In this document: piece after piece, positions 34,105-47,073 of the stretch
How positions within the stretch are numbered: position 1 is the stretch's first letter
Layout: every line of letters starts with the position of its first letter
NCBI GenBank assembly: GCA_003252455.1
Contig: QKED01000043.1
Coordinates: forward strand, 62,001 to 126,000
DNA from: Gammaproteobacteria bacterium
GTDB lineage: Bacteria > Pseudomonadota > Gammaproteobacteria > Thiohalomonadales > Thiohalomonadaceae
Reading direction: 5' to 3'
DNA length: 64,000 nt
The notes under the pieces: model-generated
Told to the model about the DNA's origin: nothing
Seen by the model: the letters and a program-made list of their open reading frames with translations, nothing else
The model's database searches: none
Made by a program: the position numbers and the translations under genes

Positions 34105-37100
34105 TTATTGGACGTTGTCGTAGAGCATCTGGAAGGCCTGGGCGGGCAGTGCGAACTGCGCCTCCTCGGTCCCCGCAGCGGTGCTGCTACCGATACGAAC
34201 GAGGCCGTCGGGTAGACCCAGGATCAACTCCTCACCCGGGTCCATCTCCAGATAGTCACCCATGCCGGCCACTTGGATCACCCCCACATTGAGGATGGTG
34301 AAGCGACTGTAGGTGGTGGTTCCGATAGGGTTGAGCCCACTGGAGCAGCCGTTGCAACGGTCGTAGAGGTTCACCCCACCACTGGCGGAGTCGAACTGAC
34401 CGTAGTAGTCCATACCATTGTTAGTGCCGAGATAGACATAGTTGGCACTGTTCTCCACCTGGTCGAGGGTGGTGGTATTGCTGCTGAATACCCCGTCTAC
34501 GTCGACGCTGTAGGCGACGGTGCAGTTGTTGGCGAGCGAGGTATTGGTGCAGCTATTGATCCGCAGGGAGTAGCCGGTGGACGCCTGCAGCACATGCAGT
34601 TGCAACAACTCGGAGCCGACGGGGAAGCGCAGGCTGGCATCGGCCATGTGGCTGGCCCAGGCGGTGGGGAACACGCGTGCCATCAGGTCACCGCTCAGGT
34701 CCATGCTATCGAAGGTGACCTGGATGCCATCGAAGACGTTACCTGCACTGTCGACCATAGTCAGGTCGACATAGCCCTCGAAGATGGAGTCGACACGCGG
34801 GTACGTACTGCTGTTGACCCAGCCGTTGGCGGCACTGAGCATCCACTCGGGCTCCTGAGCGCGGGTGACGAAGCCACCGTTGACCAGGTCCCACTCCATT
34901 TCGGATTCGTTGATGGTGTTACCCACCATCTGAATCACGCTGTACGCCGGTACCTCCACCTGATTGTAGGTGTTGTAGTCGTACTGAGAGCGACTGCGCA
35001 CCATGGTGAGTCCGGCGGTGAGCAGGTCACTGATGTGGGTGTCATCGGTGACCGGCGTGCCGTTGTAGCTGACGGCGGTCGGCATGGAGGCCCCCTGCAG
35101 CAACATACCACCGTAGTATGTGGTATCGCCGCCGTAGTGGTCGGTCAACTCCACATCGGCGTAAACGCCATTGAACATGCCGAAGGTGGTACGCATGGAG
35201 GCGACCATCATCCCATCCGCCGGTTCGTAGAGGTCGATACCGAGACTCATCGAGCCTTCGCTATAGTCGTAGACCCCACAAGTGAAGCCATCGAACGAAC
35301 TCCCGCTCGGGGCGATGATCTCGCAGAAGGCGTTGTAGTAGTCCGCGGTGCTGAGCTGCAGGCTGAGGACGAAGTCGGTGCTGCCATCGCCATCGTAGTC
35401 CACGTCGAAGTCACCGAGCACACCAGGGTAGATCTGCGCCCAGTCACTCTGGGCGAAGGCCTTGACGCTCGGCTCGGTGTCGTTGCCGACGGTGGAACGA
35501 CGACGCAGCTTGCCACCATTGAACATATCGATGTGGTAGAGCTTCGGTAGTACCTCTTGACCACCGTTGCTGCACAGACGGGTCTGGGTCACCAGGGAGT
35601 CGTCATCCACGCTGCTCGGTTCGAGCAGTACGCACTCACTGTCGCTACCGGACAGAGGCATCCACTCGGCCAGCAGGGAGATGCTGCCCGGGAAGAAGCC
35701 GGCAAAGTAGTAGTTGCCGAGGTCGTCCTGCATGAACACATCGCTGCCGTTGAGCTTGACGCTGGTATGGTCCACGACGCTGGTCACGTAGTCCATGGCG
35801 CGGGCGGCGAAGTCGTAGCTGGCCATGAGCACATCGTCACCGTTGCCGAGCACACCATCCACGCTATCCACCACGTTGATCACGTAGGGGCTGTTGTCGG
35901 TCAGGGTCGAGAGGTTGCAGCTGATGGAGCTGTAGCGACTGCTCTGGAACTGCTCGGCGGCCGGGTCGGGCAGGTACTGGTAGGCACGCATCACGCTGAT
36001 GTTGCTCTCGGCAGCGGCAAAACGGGTGCTGCAGCCGGGGGTACCGTTGACCGTCATGAACAGGTTCTCCAGCTTGCCACTACGCATGGTCGGCGGGCTG
36101 AGCAGGCCGATCACCACACTGTGGCTGCCATCCTCCTTGGTCAGCATGCGGGTGTAGGGTTGCGTATCCACGTGGCGTGCATAGAGGTCCGCATCGAACT
36201 CCTCGATGCTGTCGGGGGTCACTGCACTCATGTCCAGTGGCAGCGTGGCGGCATCGTAGTTGCCTGCGTAGTGGCGCGTCACCTCCTCTTGATAGAGGAT
36301 CATGGTCGGACCACTGCTATCGCCCGGGGCCCGCACGAACATGCCAGTGTAGCGGGCGACCATATCCTCCAACTCATCGAGGCTGCCGTCGCCGTTATTG
36401 TCGACCAGCTCCTGTGAGTGGCTCAGGAAGGAGAAGTGACCGGTCATCGGGTCCATGACGAAGTCACTCCAGGTCTCGTACTGGGTATTCTCGCCAGAGG
36501 CGACTGCCAGCTCACCTCCCGCCATTTCCAGTTGGAAGGAGAGCGCCTTTTGCACAGAACCCTCGTTGGATTTGGCCACCATCTCGGCCTCGAACACACC
36601 GTTGTAGTCCTCATCACCGCTATGGGTGTAGAGGAACTCGCCCGTGTAGCTGTAGCTGGTCTGACACTCGGCCACGAGCTGGGCGTTACGGTCGGTGACA
36701 TCCGCCGTACCCGTCACTGAGCCATCGGGGCTGAGGGTACCGTAGACGGCGATGAGGTCGCTGTTGCCGAGCGAGCCATCCACTAGGCTGTTGTGGTCGG
36801 CACTGCCGTCGGCGAAGAAGCTGCCAGTAGCGTGGGTGATGCCGCCGGCCAGGGTGTCGCCGTTGGAGGTGCTGAAGGTCAGGCCGGACGCATCCTCGTC
36901 GAGGCTGAAGTAGACCACCTTGATCTCGCCCACGGCATCTTCACACACGCCTCCATTCTTCGGGGTGGCGGAGGTCACGGTGAAGTCGGCACGCCAGACG
37001 CCCCGCACCACGTCACTGACGCTGACATGGACACTGGCGCTCGCCGTGGCCTGACCATCACTGATGGTATAGGTGAAGCTGTCGTCACCGGAGAAGCCAC

Positions 37101-40100
37101 TGGCCGGGGTGTAGACCACGCTGGTGCCGTCGATGGAGACGGTGCCATGCCCCGGGGTACCGACGGCGGAGACACTCAGGCTACCGTTCTCCAGGTCGCT
37201 GTCGTTGGCCAGCACCTCGATGGTGACCGAGTTACCCTGCATCACACTGGCCTGGTCGTCGACCGCCACGGGGGCATCGTTGACCGGGGTGACGGTGATG
37301 TGGACGGTGGCCTCAGCGGTGAGGCCACCACTGTCCTCGATGCTGTAGATGAAGCTGTCGCTACCGTTGAAGTTGGCCACCGGGGTGTAGACATAGTAGT
37401 CACCCTGCAGGACCAGACTGCCCATCTCGGGCATGGCCACCACGCTCACCAGGGTCCCGGCAGCGATGGTGTCCTCCTCGTCGGAATCGTTCACCAGCAC
37501 CTGCTGGACGATGTTCATCTGCAGTTGGCCATCCTCGGCGACGCTGAACTGATCGTCCACCGCCACCGGGGTGTCGTTCACCGGCAGCACGTTGACGCTG
37601 ACCTGTGCGGTCGCCGTCTTGCCCTGGTTGTCGACGATCACGTAGCTGAAGCTGTCAGTACCGTAGAAGTTGGCGGCCGGGGTGTACTCGACGGCGATGG
37701 CGTAGCCACTCTCCGGCGGGTGCAGGGCGGTGGTGCCATGACTGCCGTTGGTGGCCGACTGCACGTAGATCGTGCCCTGGTTGGTGTCGTAGTCGTTGTT
37801 CAGCACATCGACGAAGATCATCGTGTCTTCGTTACCCTCGGCACTGTCGTCACGCGCCACCGGGGCATCGTCACAGGCATCGCCCACACCGTTGGCGTTG
37901 AGGTCGGCCTGATCCTGATTGCTCACCAGAGGGCAGTTGTCGCTGGTATCGGGGGTGCCGTCGTTGTCGTCGTCCGGGTCGCAGACATTACCGAGCGCAT
38001 CATCGTCGGTGTTGAGCTGATCGAGATTGGCGACCGTCGGGCAGTTGTCCAGCGGGTCGGAGATGCCATCCCCGTCGGTGTCGACGTCACAGGCGTTACC
38101 GATGCCGTTGCGGTCGGTGTCGGCCTGGTCCGGGTTGGCCACCAGCGGGCAGTTGTCACCCTCGTCGAGCACGCTGTCGTTGTCGTCATCGTCGTCGCAG
38201 GCGTTGCCGGCGGCATCGGTGTCGCTGTTGAGCTGATCGGCGTTGGCGGTGAGCGGGCAGTTGTCGCTGGCATCGCCCACGGTGTCCTCATCGGTGTCGG
38301 CCAGTTCGGGGTTGGTGCCGAGGAGCTCCTCTTGGGTGTTGCTCAGGCCGTCACCATCGATGTCGTCGTCGCACACATCGCCCTTACCGTCGCTGTCCAT
38401 ATCCTCCTGGCCTGGGTTGTAGACGGTGGAGCAGTTGTCGCCCTTGTCACCGACCCCATCGTGGTCCACGTCACTGCTCTCGTTGGGGTCGAGCGGGAAG
38501 GGATCCTGGCTGTCGTTGACGCCGTCACCATCGGTGTCGGCCTTCAGCGGGTTGGTGCCCATCTCCACCTCGGCGCCGTCGGAGAGGCCGTCACCGTCGG
38601 TGTCTTTCACCAGCGGCTTGGTGCCGTAACCCTTCTCGGCCGTGTCGCTCAGACCGTCGTCATCGTCATCGGTATCGGCGTTATTGCCGATGCCATCCTT
38701 ATCGGTGTCGACGGACTCGTTCTTGTCGAGCGGGAAGGCGTCGTTCTTGTCGCTGACGCCATCCGCATCGGTGTCGCGATTGAGCGGGTTGGTGCCCTTG
38801 GTGGCCTCTTCGGTATCGCTCAGACCATCGTTGTCGTCGTCGGTATCGGCGTTGTCACCGATGCCGTCCTTGTCGGTGTCACGGCTCTCGGAGGCGTCGA
38901 GCGGGAAGGGGTCCTCAGCATTGACCACCTCGTCACCGTCGATGTCGTCATCGCAGGCGTTACCCTTGCCATCGTTATCCATGTCGAGCTGCAGCGGGTT
39001 GGCGCGCAGCGGGCAGTTGTCCACACCGTTGCTCTTGCCGTCGCCGTCGAGGTCACCCTCGGGACCATCGTCGCAGGCGTCGCCGATGCCGTTGCTGTCG
39101 CTATCGGCCTGGCTGGCATTCGCGGCGGCGGGGCAGTTATCGAAACCGTCGTAGACGCCATCGCCATCGGTGTCGTCTTTGACCAGCGGGTGCGCATCCT
39201 CCTCGTCGAGGATGCCGTCGTTGTCGTCGTCGCTGTCGGCGTTGTTACCCACACCGTCGCCATCGGTGTCGACGCTCTCGAGCGGGTCGAGGGGGAAGGC
39301 GTCGAGGATGTTGAGCACGCCATCGCCGTCCAGATCGGGATTGGTCTCGGCCGGCTTGGTGGCAATGGTGCTGTTGGTGTCGAGCGTGGTGGTCACCGTG
39401 GCGCCGGTGCTGGCCTTCTCGCCATCGATCACCGCCTTGGTGCTCCCCACCAGGGTATTGGTATTGGGGATGGTGAGGTTGTTGGGGTCGGCATCGAGCA
39501 CGTCGATGTGCTCTCCGACCACACCGCCATCATCACCGATGATGCCGTCGGTGAGGTCGGCAACCAGCTCGCTGAGCACGGCGTCGGCGTCGGAGCCGCT
39601 GGCGCGCTGGCCCATTTCGTAGGCCACCGCGGTGAGCGCCTCGACCGCGCCACGATAGAGGGCCGTGGCCTCCTGCTCTTCGGCGGTGTCGGTGTCGCTG
39701 GTGAGTAGTGGCGGGGTCTGGAAGATGTCGATGTCACTGGTGACACCGAAGCCGAGGGTGGAGGTGACCTGCCCGGCGGCGGTCTCCAGCTCGGTAAGGA
39801 ACTCGGCCACGCTGCCGTTACCGTCGGCGTTGGTGCGGGCCAGGGCCAGATCCACGGCCATGGTGGTCAGGGGGGTGGCGTAGATGCGCTTGAGGCCGTT
39901 GATCTCCTCCTGACGCACCACGCTGCGCAGCACGGTGATCACCGGGTACTGACCCGTGGTGAGGTCGGTGGTGCCTGCGTTGGCGCGATACTCGATGATG
40001 AACGGCGGGGTCGCGCCGGCGGGGACCACGACGCCGCTCAGCTGGGCCTGGCTGTCGGTGGTACCGGTATCGATCGGGGTGCTCGCCATCACCAGGGTGG

Positions 40101-40314
40101 TGCCGCTCACCTGCAGCGGATAGAGGGCCACATCGGCCCCCACCAGCGGGCCTTTGACCACGCTGCCGGAGAGCGAGACGCCTTGGGTTTGCGAGGTGCC
40201 ACCGCCACCGCCACCGCCGCCACAAGCGGTGAGCAGTAAGGCCAGAGAGACGGCAGCGCCGACGCGCGCGCCACTGGCCAGTGAGCGGAACGAGATCTGA
40301 GACTTATCGTTCAT
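34105..40314 (-). CDS. Giant surface lipoprotein with calcium-binding repeats and cadherin-like domains
   Basis: 2069 residues from the ATG at 40314 (ribosome site GGGAAG). Lipoprotein signal with LTAC and lipidated Cys at 31, followed by eight Gly. +2 is not Asp, so outer-membrane sorting is expected. Residues 45-320 form a module shared with the 858-residue protein (GVSLSGSVVKGP ... YATPLTTMAVD). Residues about 327-818 are Asp-rich thrombospondin-type-3-like repeats (DxDxDG), with seven DNC motifs (six DNCP, one DNCS). Residues about 817-1102 hold three cadherin-like tandem domains (each ending near ANFYGTDSFSYVI, ANFNGSDSFIYSI, SGFSGDDSFTYTI). Residues 1103-2069 match nothing I recognise. 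Calcium-stabilised adhesion or matrix binding is plausible by analogy only. It is divergent from the 858-residue gene. Confidence 0.85.
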   Translation of the reverse strand: MNDKSQISFRSLASGARVGAAVSLALLLTACGGGGGGGGTSQTQGVSLSGSVVKGPLVGADVALYPLQVSGTTLVMASTPIDTGTTDSQAQLSGVVVPAGATPPFIIEYRANAGTTDLTTGQYPVITVLRSVVRQEEINGLKRIYATPLTTMAVDLALARTNADGNGSVAEFLTELETAAGQVTSTLGFGVTSDIDIFQTPPLLTSDTDTAEEQEATALYRGAVEALTAVAYEMGQRASGSDADAVLSELVADLTDGIIGDDGGVVGEHIDVLDADPNNLTIPNTNTLVGSTKAVIDGEKASTGATVTTTLDTNSTIATKPAETNPDLDGDGVLNILDAFPLDPLESVDTDGDGVGNNADSDDDNDGILDEEDAHPLVKDDTDGDGVYDGFDNCPAAANASQADSDSNGIGDACDDGPEGDLDGDGKSNGVDNCPLRANPLQLDMDNDGKGNACDDDIDGDEVVNAEDPFPLDASESRDTDKDGIGDNADTDDDNDGLSDTEEATKGTNPLNRDTDADGVSDKNDAFPLDKNESVDTDKDGIGNNADTDDDDDGLSDTAEKGYGTKPLVKDTDGDGLSDGAEVEMGTNPLKADTDGDGVNDSQDPFPLDPNESSDVDHDGVGDKGDNCSTVYNPGQEDMDSDGKGDVCDDDIDGDGLSNTQEELLGTNPELADTDEDTVGDASDNCPLTANADQLNSDTDAAGNACDDDDDNDSVLDEGDNCPLVANPDQADTDRNGIGNACDVDTDGDGISDPLDNCPTVANLDQLNTDDDALGNVCDPDDDNDGTPDTSDNCPLVSNQDQADLNANGVGDACDDAPVARDDSAEGNEDTMIFVDVLNNDYDTNQGTIYVQSATNGSHGTTALHPPESGYAIAVEYTPAANFYGTDSFSYVIVDNQGKTATAQVSVNVLPVNDTPVAVDDQFSVAEDGQLQMNIVQQVLVNDSDEEDTIAAGTLVSVVAMPEMGSLVLQGDYYVYTPVANFNGSDSFIYSIEDSGGLTAEATVHITVTPVNDAPVAVDDQASVMQGNSVTIEVLANDSDLENGSLSVSAVGTPGHGTVSIDGTSVVYTPASGFSGDDSFTYTISDGQATASASVHVSVSDVVRGVWRADFTVTSATPKNGGVCEDAVGEIKVVYFSLDEDASGLTFSTSNGDTLAGGITHATGSFFADGSADHNSLVDGSLGNSDLIAVYGTLSPDGSVTGTADVTDRNAQLVAECQTSYSYTGEFLYTHSGDEDYNGVFEAEMVAKSNEGSVQKALSFQLEMAGGELAVASGENTQYETWSDFVMDPMTGHFSFLSHSQELVDNNGDGSLDELEDMVARYTGMFVRAPGDSSGPTMILYQEEVTRHYAGNYDAATLPLDMSAVTPDSIEEFDADLYARHVDTQPYTRMLTKEDGSHSVVIGLLSPPTMRSGKLENLFMTVNGTPGCSTRFAAAESNISVMRAYQYLPDPAAEQFQSSRYSSISCNLSTLTDNSPYVINVVDSVDGVLGNGDDVLMASYDFAARAMDYVTSVVDHTSVKLNGSDVFMQDDLGNYYFAGFFPGSISLLAEWMPLSGSDSECVLLEPSSVDDDSLVTQTRLCSNGGQEVLPKLYHIDMFNGGKLRRRSTVGNDTEPSVKAFAQSDWAQIYPGVLGDFDVDYDGDGSTDFVLSLQLSTADYYNAFCEIIAPSGSSFDGFTCGVYDYSEGSMSLGIDLYEPADGMMVASMRTTFGMFNGVYADVELTDHYGGDTTYYGGMLLQGASMPTAVSYNGTPVTDDTHISDLLTAGLTMVRSRSQYDYNTYNQVEVPAYSVIQMVGNTINESEMEWDLVNGGFVTRAQEPEWMLSAANGWVNSSTYPRVDSIFEGYVDLTMVDSAGNVFDGIQVTFDSMDLSGDLMARVFPTAWASHMADASLRFPVGSELLQLHVLQASTGYSLRINSCTNTSLANNCTVAYSVDVDGVFSSNTTTLDQVENSANYVYLGTNNGMDYYGQFDSASGGVNLYDRCNGCSSGLNPIGTTTYSRFTILNVGVIQVAGMGDYLEMDPGEELILGLPDGLVRIGSSTAAGTEEAQFALPAQAFQMLYDNVQ

Positions 40315-40927
40315 CGAATCACTTCCCCCATGTGCACATGGATGTCTATAAAGTTGAGATGACTGCAAGGGACACGCCTCCGCCAAGGCGGAGAGCGATG
40401 AGATTAGCTTGGGCGAGTGTCAGGTTTATGAGTAAGAGGAGCACCCGACAACGGGTGAGATGATCCCACTCCGTACCTCAATTTAAGACTACGCCATAAC
40501 TAGGCGCAATGCGATGCCGCCAGGGGTAAAACAGTGTCGCGTCGGCGCAGAAAAATATGGGTATTTTTCCCACAAAAGCACACCCCTTAATTTACACATC
40601 CACCCATCTCTGCTCACGATCGTTTTTGTGTGGAATGGACGCCAACCCTTGTGCACGTAGAGGCGAGGCGCAAAGATCGCCTCGACCATGCATTAGCAAG
40701 TGCTGATCAACCCCTCCAACAACCTAGGAATAATAGTTAGGCTATCCTAACCGTCGACCTCGGTCGATCGCTACGTATAGGCAAATTTCCGGGCCTCGGA
40801 AAAACCACCCGAACAGACCTACATAAGCCAGCAGCAATCACCTACAAGACTTACGCGCACATAGTGTATCCAAACTTGTTACCCTCCTGCATCTGTCAAA
40901 CGACCACATCATCTGTAGGAGAAGTCC
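40315..40927. other. Divergent intergenic region between the two large lipoprotein genes
   Basis: 613 bases without a credible gene, AT-richer than its surroundings. It must contain promoters for the giant lipoprotein gene (left) and the 858-residue lipoprotein gene (right). A palindrome GTTAGG-CTAT-CCTAAC (40736-40751) is followed at once by CGACC-TC-GGTCG (40755-40766), both possible operators. I cannot assign a convincing -35/-10 pair on either strand. Confidence 0.55.
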
Positions 40928-43504
40928 ATGGGCTCCTGTTGTATCAGTCCCACACTCAGGACTATCACGCTGCTATATCTGTCGGTCACGCTACTGGCCG
41001 GTTGCGGCGGCAGTGGAAATACCAACACGGGTAGCACCCCGCAAGGGGTGACACTCTCCGGCTCGGTCGTCAAGGGTATCATCCGCCACGGGCTGGTGGA
41101 CGTCTACCCGATTACCGCTGGCACGCCTGCAGACACTCCGATCATGACCGGCACCACCGGCGTGGATGGTCGCTACACCTTGACCGTCCCCGCTGGGCAG
41201 ACCGGGCCGTTCAAGCTGGTGCTGCGCAAGGGGCCGGCCACCGAGATGCGCTGTGACGCCCCTGCAGGCTGTGGGATTACCCCCTATGGTGAGTGGATCC
41301 CCACCTCCGCCCTGCCCGCCAACCTCTCGCTACAGGCGATGCTCCCCGCACAAACAGCCGGGAGCAGCACAGCGGTCAACATCACCCCATTGACCCACAT
41401 GGCGAGTGTCGATGCGGCCCGGCGCGGTCTCGACTCCGACAACATCCGCATCGCCAACCAGCGTGTCGGCACCCTGTTCGAGATCACCGACATCGTTGGC
41501 CAAGAGCCCATCGACATCGTCGACAGCGCGGCGATCACCTCGGCCAGCCCCGATCGCGTCCGCCTCGCACTCTTCTCCGCCGCACTCGCGCAGCAGGCCT
41601 ACGGCACTCATCGTGACCTCGCCGAGGCCATCGAGGCACTGGCGAGCGGCTACGCCAGCCACCAAGGCCAGCTGGCCACCCAACCTGCTGCCGGTGAGAT
41701 GAGCCTAAGCGAACTGGTCGAGGGCGCGGAGGCGGTCGTAGCGCAGATCCGCACCAGCGCCCCGGCGGCGCTCGACACCCAGGTCGCCATGACCGTGGCC
41801 GAACTCGCCACCCTGGCCAAGGCGAGTGACTACACCGCGATCCCCGAGGTCGAGACACCCCCACCGAGCAACGACTTCGACGCGGCCAAGGCGCTGGTGA
41901 GGGCGATCCGCGACTACTGGAAGGGGCTGCTCGACCCCACCTCCGCCACCTCGCAGGCGCGGCTCACCCTCGACCATCAGGTCGCGCAGTCGCGCCAGGT
42001 GGTGGCCGATGCCGAGTCCGCCCTGCCCCACTACCTGGACCTCCTCAGCGCCGCGACCCGATTCGCCCTCGCCCCGACCAGCAGCAGCGAGCCTACCTGC
42101 ACCAGCGGCTACGACCTCGACCAGATCGACGCGATCCAGGCGCTCGAACCCGGCCTGCACGGCTGCCTAGAGGTCAGCGGCAGTGAGCAGGCGCTGCTCT
42201 CGGGCACCCCGTTCACCCTCCGCTTCGTTGCCTACCTGGGCACCGAGGGCGAGCCGAGATACCGTTTCGACGCCAACGTGACTCCCGAGGGCGCCCTCCA
42301 GGCCGTCGGCATCAGCTTCAGTGGTGCGATCAACCACCCCGAGGCATTCCGCCTCGCCCTCGACAACAGTACCCTCACCCTCGCTGTCGACCGCACCCTG
42401 AACGCCGACAACCTGAGCGAGGCGCAACTTCGCGCCAGCGACGCGGATCTCAGCGTGGCCCTTGAGAGTCTCGACCCACTCGCCCCGTTCAGCTTTTCCG
42501 GCACCCTCACCCTGGATAGCCTCTGGCAACAGGCGCAGCAGCTCAGTGACTGCCCCACCTGCCCCAGCGACACGGCCTATCTCCCCCTACCGCGCAGCTT
42601 GGCCCTCTCCGGCAAGGTCACCTACCCCGGCGGTGAGTACGGCCTCAGCGCCAATGGCATCATCAGTAATGCCGACAGCTACCAGATCAGCGCCCCGCTG
42701 ATGCCCGGCCACCAGGTCAGCGGCAGCTACCAGTTCAACGCCGATGGCACCGAGCTGACCCTCACCCTGCTCCAGCGTCGCACCCGCCTGCGCCTCGACA
42801 GCGCTACCGGCGAGGGCTGGCTGGCCCACGACGCATTCACCGCCGACGGCTGGGTCGAGCAGAACCTCTACCGCCTCAACCGCGACATCGGCACCGGCAC
42901 ACTGCCCACCTACGCCTCCATGCGCGAGCTGCTCGAAGACAACCACTGGCGCCTGCTCGACTACCTCACCGCCTGGGTCGACAACCAGGGCCTCTACTTC
43001 GCCGCGTTTGCCGCCGATGGCCCGATCCAACTCAGTGAGGAGTCCCTCCAGCTACCCGCATCCCTCGCAGGCCAGAGCGGGGCGCTGATCGCCACCCTTG
43101 AGACGCCGAGCTGGTGGCTCGGTCGCTTCGACCACTACTACCAGAGCAGCAGCAACTACCTGCTCGCCGACCTCACCCTGCGCCTCGACCTCAGCCTGCC
43201 CGAGCTGCCCGCCCTCGCCCTCACCCTGAGCGGCAAGACCCAGGGCCCCTATGCCGGTATCGGCAGCGCCCTGGTGAACCACGCCAACAACCGCCTGAGC
43301 CTCACCGCCAGCGGCGACGCCGGTAGCGCCCTCATCAACCTCTCGGCGCTAGACCAGAACGGCTCGCGCCTGTTGATCACCACCGCGAGCGGTGCCACCA
43401 GCGGCCAGCTCAGCGTCAACGGCGTGATCTACGGCAGCATCCAGGAGGAGAGCGGCATCCTGCTCATCCGCTACACCGACGGCACCTTCGAGAGCCTCGA
43501 CTAG
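40928..43504 (+). CDS. Large surface lipoprotein (858 aa) sharing the N-terminal module of the giant protein
   Basis: The lipoprotein signal ends LAGC with lipidated Cys at 26. Residues 39-185 (GVTLSGSVVKG ... VDGRYTLTVPAGQ ... NITPLTHMASVDA) match the module of the giant protein, a carboxypeptidase-regulatory-like fold followed by a TPLTxMA helix. The remainder is rich in Asp, Ser and Leu with alternating strand-like segments in the second half. It ends YGSIQEESGILLIRYTDGTFESLD, like the end of the next protein. An AGGAG lies before the ATG at 40928. It is followed after 73 bases by the 764-residue gene, probably in one operon ended by the hairpin at 45921. Function unknown. Confidence 0.8.
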   Translation: MGSCCISPTLRTITLLYLSVTLLAGCGGSGNTNTGSTPQGVTLSGSVVKGIIRHGLVDVYPITAGTPADTPIMTGTTGVDGRYTLTVPAGQTGPFKLVLRKGPATEMRCDAPAGCGITPYGEWIPTSALPANLSLQAMLPAQTAGSSTAVNITPLTHMASVDAARRGLDSDNIRIANQRVGTLFEITDIVGQEPIDIVDSAAITSASPDRVRLALFSAALAQQAYGTHRDLAEAIEALASGYASHQGQLATQPAAGEMSLSELVEGAEAVVAQIRTSAPAALDTQVAMTVAELATLAKASDYTAIPEVETPPPSNDFDAAKALVRAIRDYWKGLLDPTSATSQARLTLDHQVAQSRQVVADAESALPHYLDLLSAATRFALAPTSSSEPTCTSGYDLDQIDAIQALEPGLHGCLEVSGSEQALLSGTPFTLRFVAYLGTEGEPRYRFDANVTPEGALQAVGISFSGAINHPEAFRLALDNSTLTLAVDRTLNADNLSEAQLRASDADLSVALESLDPLAPFSFSGTLTLDSLWQQAQQLSDCPTCPSDTAYLPLPRSLALSGKVTYPGGEYGLSANGIISNADSYQISAPLMPGHQVSGSYQFNADGTELTLTLLQRRTRLRLDSATGEGWLAHDAFTADGWVEQNLYRLNRDIGTGTLPTYASMRELLEDNHWRLLDYLTAWVDNQGLYFAAFAADGPIQLSEESLQLPASLAGQSGALIATLETPSWWLGRFDHYYQSSSNYLLADLTLRLDLSLPELPALALTLSGKTQGPYAGIGSALVNHANNRLSLTASGDAGSALINLSALDQNGSRLLITTASGATSGQLSVNGVIYGSIQEESGILLIRYTDGTFESLD

Positions 43505-43577
43505 GCCACAGAGCACCCCATCGACTCAGCGTCAAACGACACCATTCGACACCCAATCTTCACAAGAGGAATCGACC

Positions 43578-45872
43578 ATGAAGGTAGTTTCTAAGCTCGG
43601 CACCGGCAGCATCCTGATCGCCGGCGTCATCAGCGCGGGCTGCGTCCCCCAGGGCAGCGACGAGAGCAGCAGCACCGACACCACCCAGGCCCCCGTCTCC
43701 GCCGTCTTCACCGTGCTGCAGACCAGTCAGACCAGCAACTGCCCCAACGGCGGCGTGATCGTCGACTCCGGCATCGACAGCAACCGCAACGGCACCCTCG
43801 ACCCCGAAGAGGTCGACCGCAGCCAAGAGGTGTGCCACGGCACCAACGGTGTGGATGGCGTCGCTGGCAGCGACGGCACCGATGGCGCCCCCGGCCTCCC
43901 CGGTGCGGATGGCACCAACGGTAGCGACGGCGTGAACGGCGCCGACGGCCTCACCAGCCTGATCAACATCATCCCCGCCGATACCGCCCTCTGCCCCACC
44001 GGTGGCCACCAGATCCAGGTCGGCCTCGACGCCAACCGCAACGGCATCCTCGACAGCAGCGAGGTCAACCCCAGCGGCGCCACCATTTGCAACCCCGACG
44101 CCAACAACACCGCCGACGGCCTGGCCAAGGTCAAGGCACTGGTCGGCGAACTGCGCACCTGGGGCCAGCAGCTCTCCGCCGTCGGCGGCGCCAGCAAGGC
44201 CTTCGCCACCCAGGCCGACGCCCTCGCCGTGGCTACCAGCCCCGCCTCCGCCTCGCTGATGCAGTCGATGGGCCTGGCCGCCACCGCCCTGGCCAACGCC
44301 CGAGACACCGACTACGCCGTGACCGACGTCACCGCCCTGCTGGTCGGCGTGGCCCCGTGGAACGCCACCGCCAACGGTAGCGTGACCAACAACGGCAACG
44401 GCACCGCGACCCTCAACGCCACCATCACCCTGCCCGTTCAGCGCGAAGATGGCTCCACCGTCGCCTACACCAACACCATCGCCCTGACCATGACCCCACC
44501 GGCGCAGAGCGGCACCACCTTCACCATGACCATCAACAGCTGGAGCGGCAGCAACGCCCTGATGCAGATGGTGGTGGGTCAGGGTGAGGCACAGATGCTC
44601 TTCGACGGTGCAGTGAGTGACCTCAATACTGCCGAAGCGGAAGGGCGTAGCATCATCGCTGCCAGCTTTGATCTGCCGGATACGGTCCTGAGCGCAAAAG
44701 ACGGGAGCTACAGTTTTACAGGTCGGCTTGGATTCAACATGCAAGCACAAGTGGTCGACGGGGTAGACAATCCTCAGGTATCTGTGGCAACTGCTGCTTT
44801 CAACGGTACATTCAACATAGGCGGGGAATCATTCACAGCGGAGTTATCCGCCGACGTCAGCAACACAAACCCCAGCGCCCCACCCATTAGCGTCGAGCAT
44901 ACGGTAGATTTTAGCTATACAGTCCGCAGCAGCCTCCCTCAGCAAGGAGGAATATATAATCCACTTACACTGACATTTTATTCACCAGACGGGTTCACTC
45001 CACTCTTTTACTATATGGATGAGTGGGGCCGCATCTTCAGAACTCAGTACTCTACCAATACATCGACCACAGACTACGTGGGCTTTAGCGGTTCCGGAGA
45101 CCTGATCAGTTTCCTTAACTCTCGATTCACGTACACACCCGGCAGCACACAATACACACTAGAACTGTCAATTCCTTACGATATTGCACCCGCCCTGACC
45201 TACGATATGCCCTATCAGGTTTGGTGGGATGAGTACACCCAACTGAACCTAGAGGGTGGCACTGTCCATGCGTACCAGTACGGTTACTACGGTTCACCTT
45301 TTCTCGATACAGCGTATGACTATTACAAGGCCGACCTACACCTAGCCTTCGATGCGCAATTAGCCGACCCAGCGGATGTAAACACTATCCTGCCAAATGC
45401 AACATTCTCATTAGACCTGTCACGCCAAGCCTTCGACCATGGAAGCCTTGAACTTAAGATCTCCCACGAAACGGGGTCACTTAGGCTGATTAGTAACATT
45501 GACCGTGCGTATCAAGATTTGGGCGAACACTGGGAATGCTTCTACGACCTGTTTGGCACATACAAATGCAACGAAACAGCAGGTGGCGCAAGGCTATTAG
45601 TAGAGACACGCAATGCATTACAAGCCCTGGTCGACGGCTGGTTCCCGAGTACGGAGATGTGGGACGGAAATCTAGCCACTAGCATCACTGAAACAGGCTA
45701 CACGTTCGTCAATCAGGATGGCGCGAGATTGGAAATTCCTGCTGGAACAAACTGGGCAGGGAAGACCATAGGTATTATTAAATACAACGGCATGGAGTAC
45801 GGCACTCTACGCCGGGGTGCTGTGGGTTACATCGTCAGTTACAGCGACGGCTCCATCGAAACCCTCTACTAA
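43578..45872 (+). CDS. Lipoprotein (764 aa) with collagen-like segment between two EF-hand-like motifs
   Basis: The lipobox SAGC gives lipidated Cys at 22. Two related cysteine-bounded motifs, CPNGGVIVDSGIDSNRNGTL (from 55) and CPTGGHQIQVGLDANRNGIL (from 139), each carry a DxNxNGxLDxxEV calcium-type loop. They flank a collagen-like Gly-X-Y stretch (about 88-124). Residues 180-345 are helical then strand-rich. From about residue 346 to 745 the DNA is clearly AT-richer with codons such as ATA, AGA and TTA, unlike the GC-ending codons before it. The end, YGTLRRGAVGYIVSYSDGSI, resembles the end of the upstream protein. Start ATG at 43578 with AGAGGA. Function unknown; a surface adhesin or matrix protein is possible. 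Confidence 0.8.
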   Translation: MKVVSKLGTGSILIAGVISAGCVPQGSDESSSTDTTQAPVSAVFTVLQTSQTSNCPNGGVIVDSGIDSNRNGTLDPEEVDRSQEVCHGTNGVDGVAGSDGTDGAPGLPGADGTNGSDGVNGADGLTSLINIIPADTALCPTGGHQIQVGLDANRNGILDSSEVNPSGATICNPDANNTADGLAKVKALVGELRTWGQQLSAVGGASKAFATQADALAVATSPASASLMQSMGLAATALANARDTDYAVTDVTALLVGVAPWNATANGSVTNNGNGTATLNATITLPVQREDGSTVAYTNTIALTMTPPAQSGTTFTMTINSWSGSNALMQMVVGQGEAQMLFDGAVSDLNTAEAEGRSIIAASFDLPDTVLSAKDGSYSFTGRLGFNMQAQVVDGVDNPQVSVATAAFNGTFNIGGESFTAELSADVSNTNPSAPPISVEHTVDFSYTVRSSLPQQGGIYNPLTLTFYSPDGFTPLFYYMDEWGRIFRTQYSTNTSTTDYVGFSGSGDLISFLNSRFTYTPGSTQYTLELSIPYDIAPALTYDMPYQVWWDEYTQLNLEGGTVHAYQYGYYGSPFLDTAYDYYKADLHLAFDAQLADPADVNTILPNATFSLDLSRQAFDHGSLELKISHETGSLRLISNIDRAYQDLGEHWECFYDLFGTYKCNETAGGARLLVETRNALQALVDGWFPSTEMWDGNLATSITETGYTFVNQDGARLEIPAGTNWAGKTIGIIKYNGMEYGTLRRGAVGYIVSYSDGSIETLY

Positions 45873-45920
45873 GCCACGCTTAGCGGATGGCCTCAGGCCA
45901 TCCGCCCTCATTAATCACCA

Positions 45921-45963
45921 CCCAAAACAGACGGGGCGGCATTGCCGCCCCGTCTGTTTTGGG
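45921..45963 (+). terminator. Terminator after the 858/764-residue lipoprotein genes
   Basis: A perfect 20-base inverted repeat (45921-45940 and 45944-45963) with a 3-base loop; the right arm ends in a TTTT run. It closes the lipoprotein operon. Confidence 0.88.
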
Positions 45964-45978
45964 TCTGAGTCACAGCCC

Positions 45979-47073
45979 ATGCCAGCAGACCCTCGTCTCC
46001 TTCTCATCACACTTGCGCTCCTAAGCACGCTTCACAGCCATGTATCCGCCAAAGACGGTGAGCCCCCGCAGATCTACCTGCACACCGATCACTTCCTCTA
46101 CTCCGCGCCGGTCTCGGTCGACGCCTTCACCAGCGACTGGCACGGCCCCTACCAGGGCGGAGAGTGGGCCGTCGCCCTCAACGAAGTGGAGATGGGCATT
46201 CACTACCAAGAGTGGCAGCTCGGCTACCTCTACCGGCACCAAGCCGAGGCGCGTTTCAGCGCCGACAGCGCCCGTCTGGTCTACCTCACGCGCAACCACC
46301 TGCCACTGCCGACGGGTGAGGAGCTGGCACTGGATCTGAAGGTGCAACAGGTGATCACCCGAGGGCTTCGCCTCGGCCGTCGCTGGCAGTGGGAGCACCT
46401 CGGCCTGACCCCCTCGCTGCTCCTGTGGCAGGCCGAGCGCATCACCGACGGCGCGCTCAGCGGGCACGCCAGCGTGGTGGGCGACAAAGACTACGACTAC
46501 CAGGTCGCGGTGGACTATCACTACACTGAGGACGGGCTATTCGGGCGTGAGAACCCCGCGCCAACAGGCACAGGCTACAGCCTGGAGCTAAGCGGCAGCT
46601 GGCAACCCGTAGAGCGCCTCGACCTGAGTTGGCAGCTGCGCAACCTCTACGGCTTTATCGACTGGCCCGAGGCGCCGCGTACACGCGCCGAGGTCACCTC
46701 CGCGACCAAGCACTACGACAGCGATGGCTATGTGGTCTACTCACCGAGCATGAGCGGTTGGGAGGGGTACGACGCCCTCCATCAGCGCCTACGCCCATCG
46801 GCACAGGTGGTGGCGGAGTGGCACGGTGCTGACGGCGTGCGTCTTCGCGGCGAGGCCCTTCTCTTTCAGCAGGGCGGGGTCGCCATGCTGGAGTATGCAC
46901 GCCCTGTCGGCAGCGTCGAGATCGGGCTACAGGCGGCACTGGCGCCGGTCGTCGGCTATGGGCTGGGGGTGAGGTGGCGCGGAGTGCAGGCTCGCCTGCT
47001 CAGCGACAAACCGACCGACCTACACGCTGCACGTCTCATCGCCCTGAGCGCGGGGGTCGTGCTGCGCTGGTGA
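45979..47073 (+). CDS. Predicted outer-membrane beta-barrel protein
   Basis: From the ATG at 45979 the 364-residue protein has a Sec signal peptide (about 1-24, LLLITLALLSTLHSHVSA). The mature part alternates short amphipathic strands (WQLGYLYRHQ, YDYQVAVDYHY, YSLELSGSW, VEIGLQAAL) and ends with a hydrophobic, Trp-terminated strand (GVVLRW), typical of outer-membrane barrels. I do not recognise a family. An open frame extends upstream to 45817, but it runs through the preceding gene and terminator. It follows the lipoprotein operon, and a role in surface assembly there is a guess from position only. Confidence 0.65.
   Translation: MPADPRLLLITLALLSTLHSHVSAKDGEPPQIYLHTDHFLYSAPVSVDAFTSDWHGPYQGGEWAVALNEVEMGIHYQEWQLGYLYRHQAEARFSADSARLVYLTRNHLPLPTGEELALDLKVQQVITRGLRLGRRWQWEHLGLTPSLLLWQAERITDGALSGHASVVGDKDYDYQVAVDYHYTEDGLFGRENPAPTGTGYSLELSGSWQPVERLDLSWQLRNLYGFIDWPEAPRTRAEVTSATKHYDSDGYVVYSPSMSGWEGYDALHQRLRPSAQVVAEWHGADGVRLRGEALLFQQGGVAMLEYARPVGSVEIGLQAALAPVVGYGLGVRWRGVQARLLSDKPTDLHAARLIALSAGVVLRW

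Follow-up and report, generated by a model that had tools for sequence, protein, structure and literature searches.

Within a 64,000-nucleotide stretch of contig QKED01000043.1 from a gammaproteobacterial genome (hereafter, the window), the gene for a 764-residue lipoprotein, p1, changes its codon usage abruptly partway along a single reading frame. Does this change mark a join between sequences of two origins, and if so, what was exchanged? The original prediction, made from the sequence alone, took the low-GC stretch for a foreign central domain set between intact ends, as in antigenic variation. The locus carries the following features.

40928–43504 (+): paralogous lipoprotein gene p2, 858 aa, GC3 0.87, without a comparable step
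43578–45872 (+): p1, probable mosaic lipoprotein gene, 764 aa; a single ORF with a lipobox-like N-terminus (MKVVSKLGTGSILIAGVISAGC) and a family profile match of 122 bits
43578–44576 (+): native-composition 5′ part of p1, codons 1–333, GC3 0.92 (Pfam, GC3)
44568–44607 (+): composition breakpoint, best estimate 44577 (change-point likelihood)
44577–45830 (+): low-GC part of p1, GC3 0.54, holding the remainder of the variable β-rich domain and the greater part of the conserved tail
45693–45869 (+): conserved C-terminal tail, residues 706–764, ending YNGMEYGTLRRGAVGYIVSYSDGSIETLY (profile match 30.4 bits)
45920–45964 (no strand): perfect palindrome of 22 bp per arm between p1 and p3, possibly a terminator, present once in the genome
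45979–47073 (+): p3, predicted outer-membrane barrel, partner gene of the lipoprotein family (conserved gene order; DUF5723 in some members)

A sharp step in codon composition

Change-point likelihood places the best break in p1 at codon 333 (nucleotide 44577; support 44568–44607), where GC3 falls from 0.92 over codons 1–333 to 0.55 beyond. The log-likelihood gain at this position was 72.4, compared with a maximum of 13.6 in 5000 shuffles of codon order. By 20-codon block, GC3 lies at 0.80–1.00 until about 44597 and at 0.35–0.80 from there to the end of the gene. The drop is clear in 16 of 18 degenerate amino acids, the exceptions being cysteine, which is the same on both sides (2 of 2), and arginine, which moves only from 5/6 to 9/14. 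GC at codon positions 1 and 2 falls too, from 0.60 and 0.54 to 0.53 and 0.45. A/T-ending and rare codons had been reported beyond the switch, and ATA, AGA, TTA, CTA and GGA codons do turn up in the low-GC part. GC3 plotted along the gene, the check proposed at the outset, forms a step: a linear gradient fits 25 log units worse, and any 10–90% width exceeding about 90 codons is disfavoured. The change in composition is genuine and abrupt, with no gradient.

The 3′ border of the low-GC part, near 45828, is borderline and not significant. Adding a third segment at the 3′ end of p1 improves the fit by just 3.1 log units (P = 0.053 by parametric bootstrap). The predicted rise to high GC over the last 20 codons is not confirmed: GC3 there is 0.75, and windows just as high are found within the low region.

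The genome is assembled in 118 contigs, with an estimated completeness of 99.7% and contamination of 0.07%. Among 592 gene calls of at least 150 aa, spanning 0.94 Mb of the same genome, the step in p1 is the largest genuine within-gene GC3 step. Three other ORFs with steps equal to or above that of p1 were discounted, as the codon-position patterns in them are those of another frame and fit over-extended ORF calls; one of them, read as protein, is a wrong-frame 5′ extension. Whole genes with GC3 below 0.55 are rare in this genome but do occur (3.4%). Elsewhere in it, a run of genes with GC3 of about 0.3–0.6 (G000:C30:52433-60278) is a candidate acquired biosynthetic island, with products that by eye resemble an amine oxidase, a kinase together with an aminotransferase, a ketoacyl synthase and an acyl-activating enzyme.

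The step and the lipoprotein family

The 5′ part of p1 encodes, in order, a signal peptide, DUF7151, a collagen-like stretch, DUF7151 again, a helical linker and the first strands of the family domain. Both DUF7151 stretches belong to Pfam PF23657 (E 5e-23), and the collagen match (E 4.5e-6) was marginally below the cut-off in the Pfam search. The helical linker is common to the paralogue and the family. The N-terminus of p1 is without the p2-type domain (SGxVVKG...) and has the DUF7151–collagen–DUF7151 arrangement there instead. Judged by its sequence, p1 appears to be a chimeric relative of the p2-type family in which the family part starts only at residue ~167, and its product is predicted to be a large surface lipoprotein.

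A profile built from 12 family members, with p1 left out, matches p1 over residues 167–645 and 706–763 (122 bits), so that p1 belongs to the family on both sides of the step. The profile is continuous in frame across the step, which therefore lies inside a shared domain and does not coincide with a domain boundary. The tail model matches p1, taken whole, with an E-value of 1.5e-10, and the tails of p1 and p2 are 34% identical over 53 residues (E 1e-5). Members of the family share a conserved leading part, a weakly conserved middle and a conserved C-terminal tail of ~60 residues; p1 is a divergent member with long insertions in its middle. Two parts of the original prediction survive in reduced form. 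Recombination best fits the sharp step, but the step falls within the shared domain and not at the edge of a swapped central one. Intact ends around a variable centre do describe the family, with its conserved flanks and weak middle, but in p1 itself the 3′ breakpoint is not secure.

The whole genome contains p1, p2 and one paralogue on contig C30. The same domain retains native composition (GC3 0.85–0.87) in both p2 and the C30 paralogue, and low GC3 is therefore not intrinsic to it. A step like that of p1 is absent from the other family members, of which ~20 homologues were examined. The family is patchily distributed in the class: 30 of 369 sampled genomes match p2 somewhere, many by the N-terminal domain alone. 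One family member (L060:4620-7190) has a long (DGSGM)n-type repeat insertion in its middle domain. In the window, a gene at 34105–40386 (−), divergent to the p2–p1–p3 block, encodes a lipoprotein of 2093 residues that carries TSP3 and cadherin/Big_9 repeats and has an N-terminal domain related to the one in p2.

Origin of the low-GC part

We consider p1 to be probably a mosaic, in which the 3′ part of a lower-GC relative's gene was recombined onto a native 5′ part. The starting point would have been a family gene of native composition, with the DUF7151/collagen N-terminus and the shared linker. Recombination would have taken place near nucleotide 44577, within the shared β-rich domain, and the 3′ part would have been supplied by a related lipoprotein gene of a bacterium of ~50% GC. 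Because the join sits in homologous sequence, we favour homologous recombination following DNA uptake over random fusion. We infer that the step marks this recombination and that the donor was of the ~50% GC type. Plausible donors do exist, as other genomes contain homologues with GC3 of 0.3–0.6. The nearest homologues of p1 are only ~25% identical, and searches of its own family, the order of G215, the class and the phylum gave remote matches only, with neither a donor sequence nor an intact native allele among them. The left part scored best with the C30 paralogue (z 9.5) and L059 (8.6), and the right part with L068 (z 9.0), all of them overly distant relatives. Neither the low-GC part nor p3 was found in plasmids, searched as DNA and as protein, or in phages and viral contigs, searched as protein.

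The same data would also accommodate the reverse history, in which the whole gene came from a lower-GC donor and a native gene later overwrote its 5′ part. None of the 19 other genomes in the organism's family carries the lipoprotein–barrel module, and the block may therefore itself be acquired. This order of events nonetheless needs the same recombination at 44577, and one genome cannot separate the two orders; we regard it as unlikely. The proposal of antigenic variation, with the central domain repeatedly replaced by conversion from silent or circulating alleles, fares worse and is in our judgement very unlikely. The conserved lead, weakly conserved middle and conserved tail seen family-wide would suit such exchange, as would the borderline high-GC return over the last 14–20 codons of p1. 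However, the whole genome holds three family members and no further or silent partial copies (draft assembly, ~99.7% complete), repeats flanking the low-GC part amount to short chance-level matches unlike cassette borders, the 3′ border is not significant, and other family members lack a similar step.

A history within the native genome is also very unlikely. A fast-evolving middle could, under selection or mutation pressure, have ceased to be optimised for codon use and shifted towards A/T with no foreign DNA involved, and the middle is indeed the family's least conserved part and, in the divergent p1, the site of long insertions. Yet the step is sharp and not graded, p2 and the C30 paralogue keep a high GC3 in a middle that is just as variable, and the low-GC part extends into the conserved tail. 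An assembly or binning chimera of two organisms' contigs would account for the differing composition on either side of the join in a genome of 118 contigs, but the join is in frame within a homologous domain, the barrel gene stands at its expected downstream place with host-like composition, and the contamination estimate is very low; such an artefact is highly improbable.

The lipoprotein–barrel pair and known systems

Homologues of p3 lie directly 3′ of the lipoprotein gene at nine loci of other genomes (L059, L060, L063, L065, L066, L067, L068, L069 and L072) and at the paralogous locus G000:C30:40912-44623, as in the window (40928–47073). At the nine loci and the C30 locus the two genes overlap or are separated by a short gap, roughly ≤100 bases, and the barrel gene product has ~360 residues. 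Of two further tail-bearing lipoproteins, L062 lacks a neighbouring barrel gene and L061 sits at the end of its contig. The order in the window is p2, p1, p3, and tandem lipoproteins ahead of one barrel also occur in G251 (L066). The tail consensus of the lipoproteins ends Y.DGTFESL. Between p1 and p3, the 45-bp palindrome was ruled out as a repeated element by its one genome copy; a second palindrome lies at 45883–45905.

That p3 is a barrel is predicted from a weak DUF5723 match, a signal peptide and strand-rich sequence. Among 11 barrel homologues, six match DUF5723 and none matches DUF560 (E 0.5). Predicted structures, for p3 by itself and for p1 together with p2, had a mean pLDDT of ~34 and were left out of account, and a PDB profile search with p3 gave no meaningful match. 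The p1 product probably sits on the cell surface as a lipoprotein and acts together with the adjacent barrel protein, which, on gene order alone, may recognise the conserved tail. One could imagine a two-gene surface-display system in which a DUF5723-like barrel recognises the ~60-residue tail, leaving recombination free to change the middle and N-terminus, and p1 would then be a module exchange whose composition has yet to even out; we offer this as a tentative and rather doubtful possibility. The literature searched contained no papers on DUF7151 or DUF5723, and by the same literature the lipoprotein–barrel pair with its conserved tail is apparently undescribed.

As a mosaic gene, p1 would represent ordinary evolution and a known kind of event, in an unusually clear single-genome case. 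Mosaic genes that arose when DNA from related species recombined within a gene are reported for nptII/aph(3')-IIa (PMC4437187) and for Legionella (PMC3218107). Like them, p1 would change sequence origin sharply within a homologous frame, with the frame and functional ends kept; unlike them, its parentage is read from composition alone. A further comparison is with the DUF7151–collagen lipoproteins, with which p1 shares two DUF7151 stretches around a collagen-like stretch after the signal peptide. A protein from a Saccharospirillum MAG is 47% identical to p1 over residues 36–171 and cannot be aligned past them, whereas p1 joins the DUF7151–collagen module to the p2-type domain and tail.

The lipoprotein–barrel pair matters more, as it could be a further surface route for Gram-negative lipoproteins. 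The cargo–barrel pairs of type XI secretion (Slam/DUF560; PMC8406197, PMC12282271) likewise combine a lipoprotein that has a variable N-terminal or middle region and a conserved C-terminal part with an adjoining outer-membrane protein gene. Unlike type XI cargo, p1 and p2 carry no TbpBBD or lipoprotein C domains (Pfam, E 0.1). The p3-type barrel also differs from Slam in having no DUF560 match and, in some members, DUF5723, and the tail of this family occupies the extreme C-terminus as a motif of ~60 residues.
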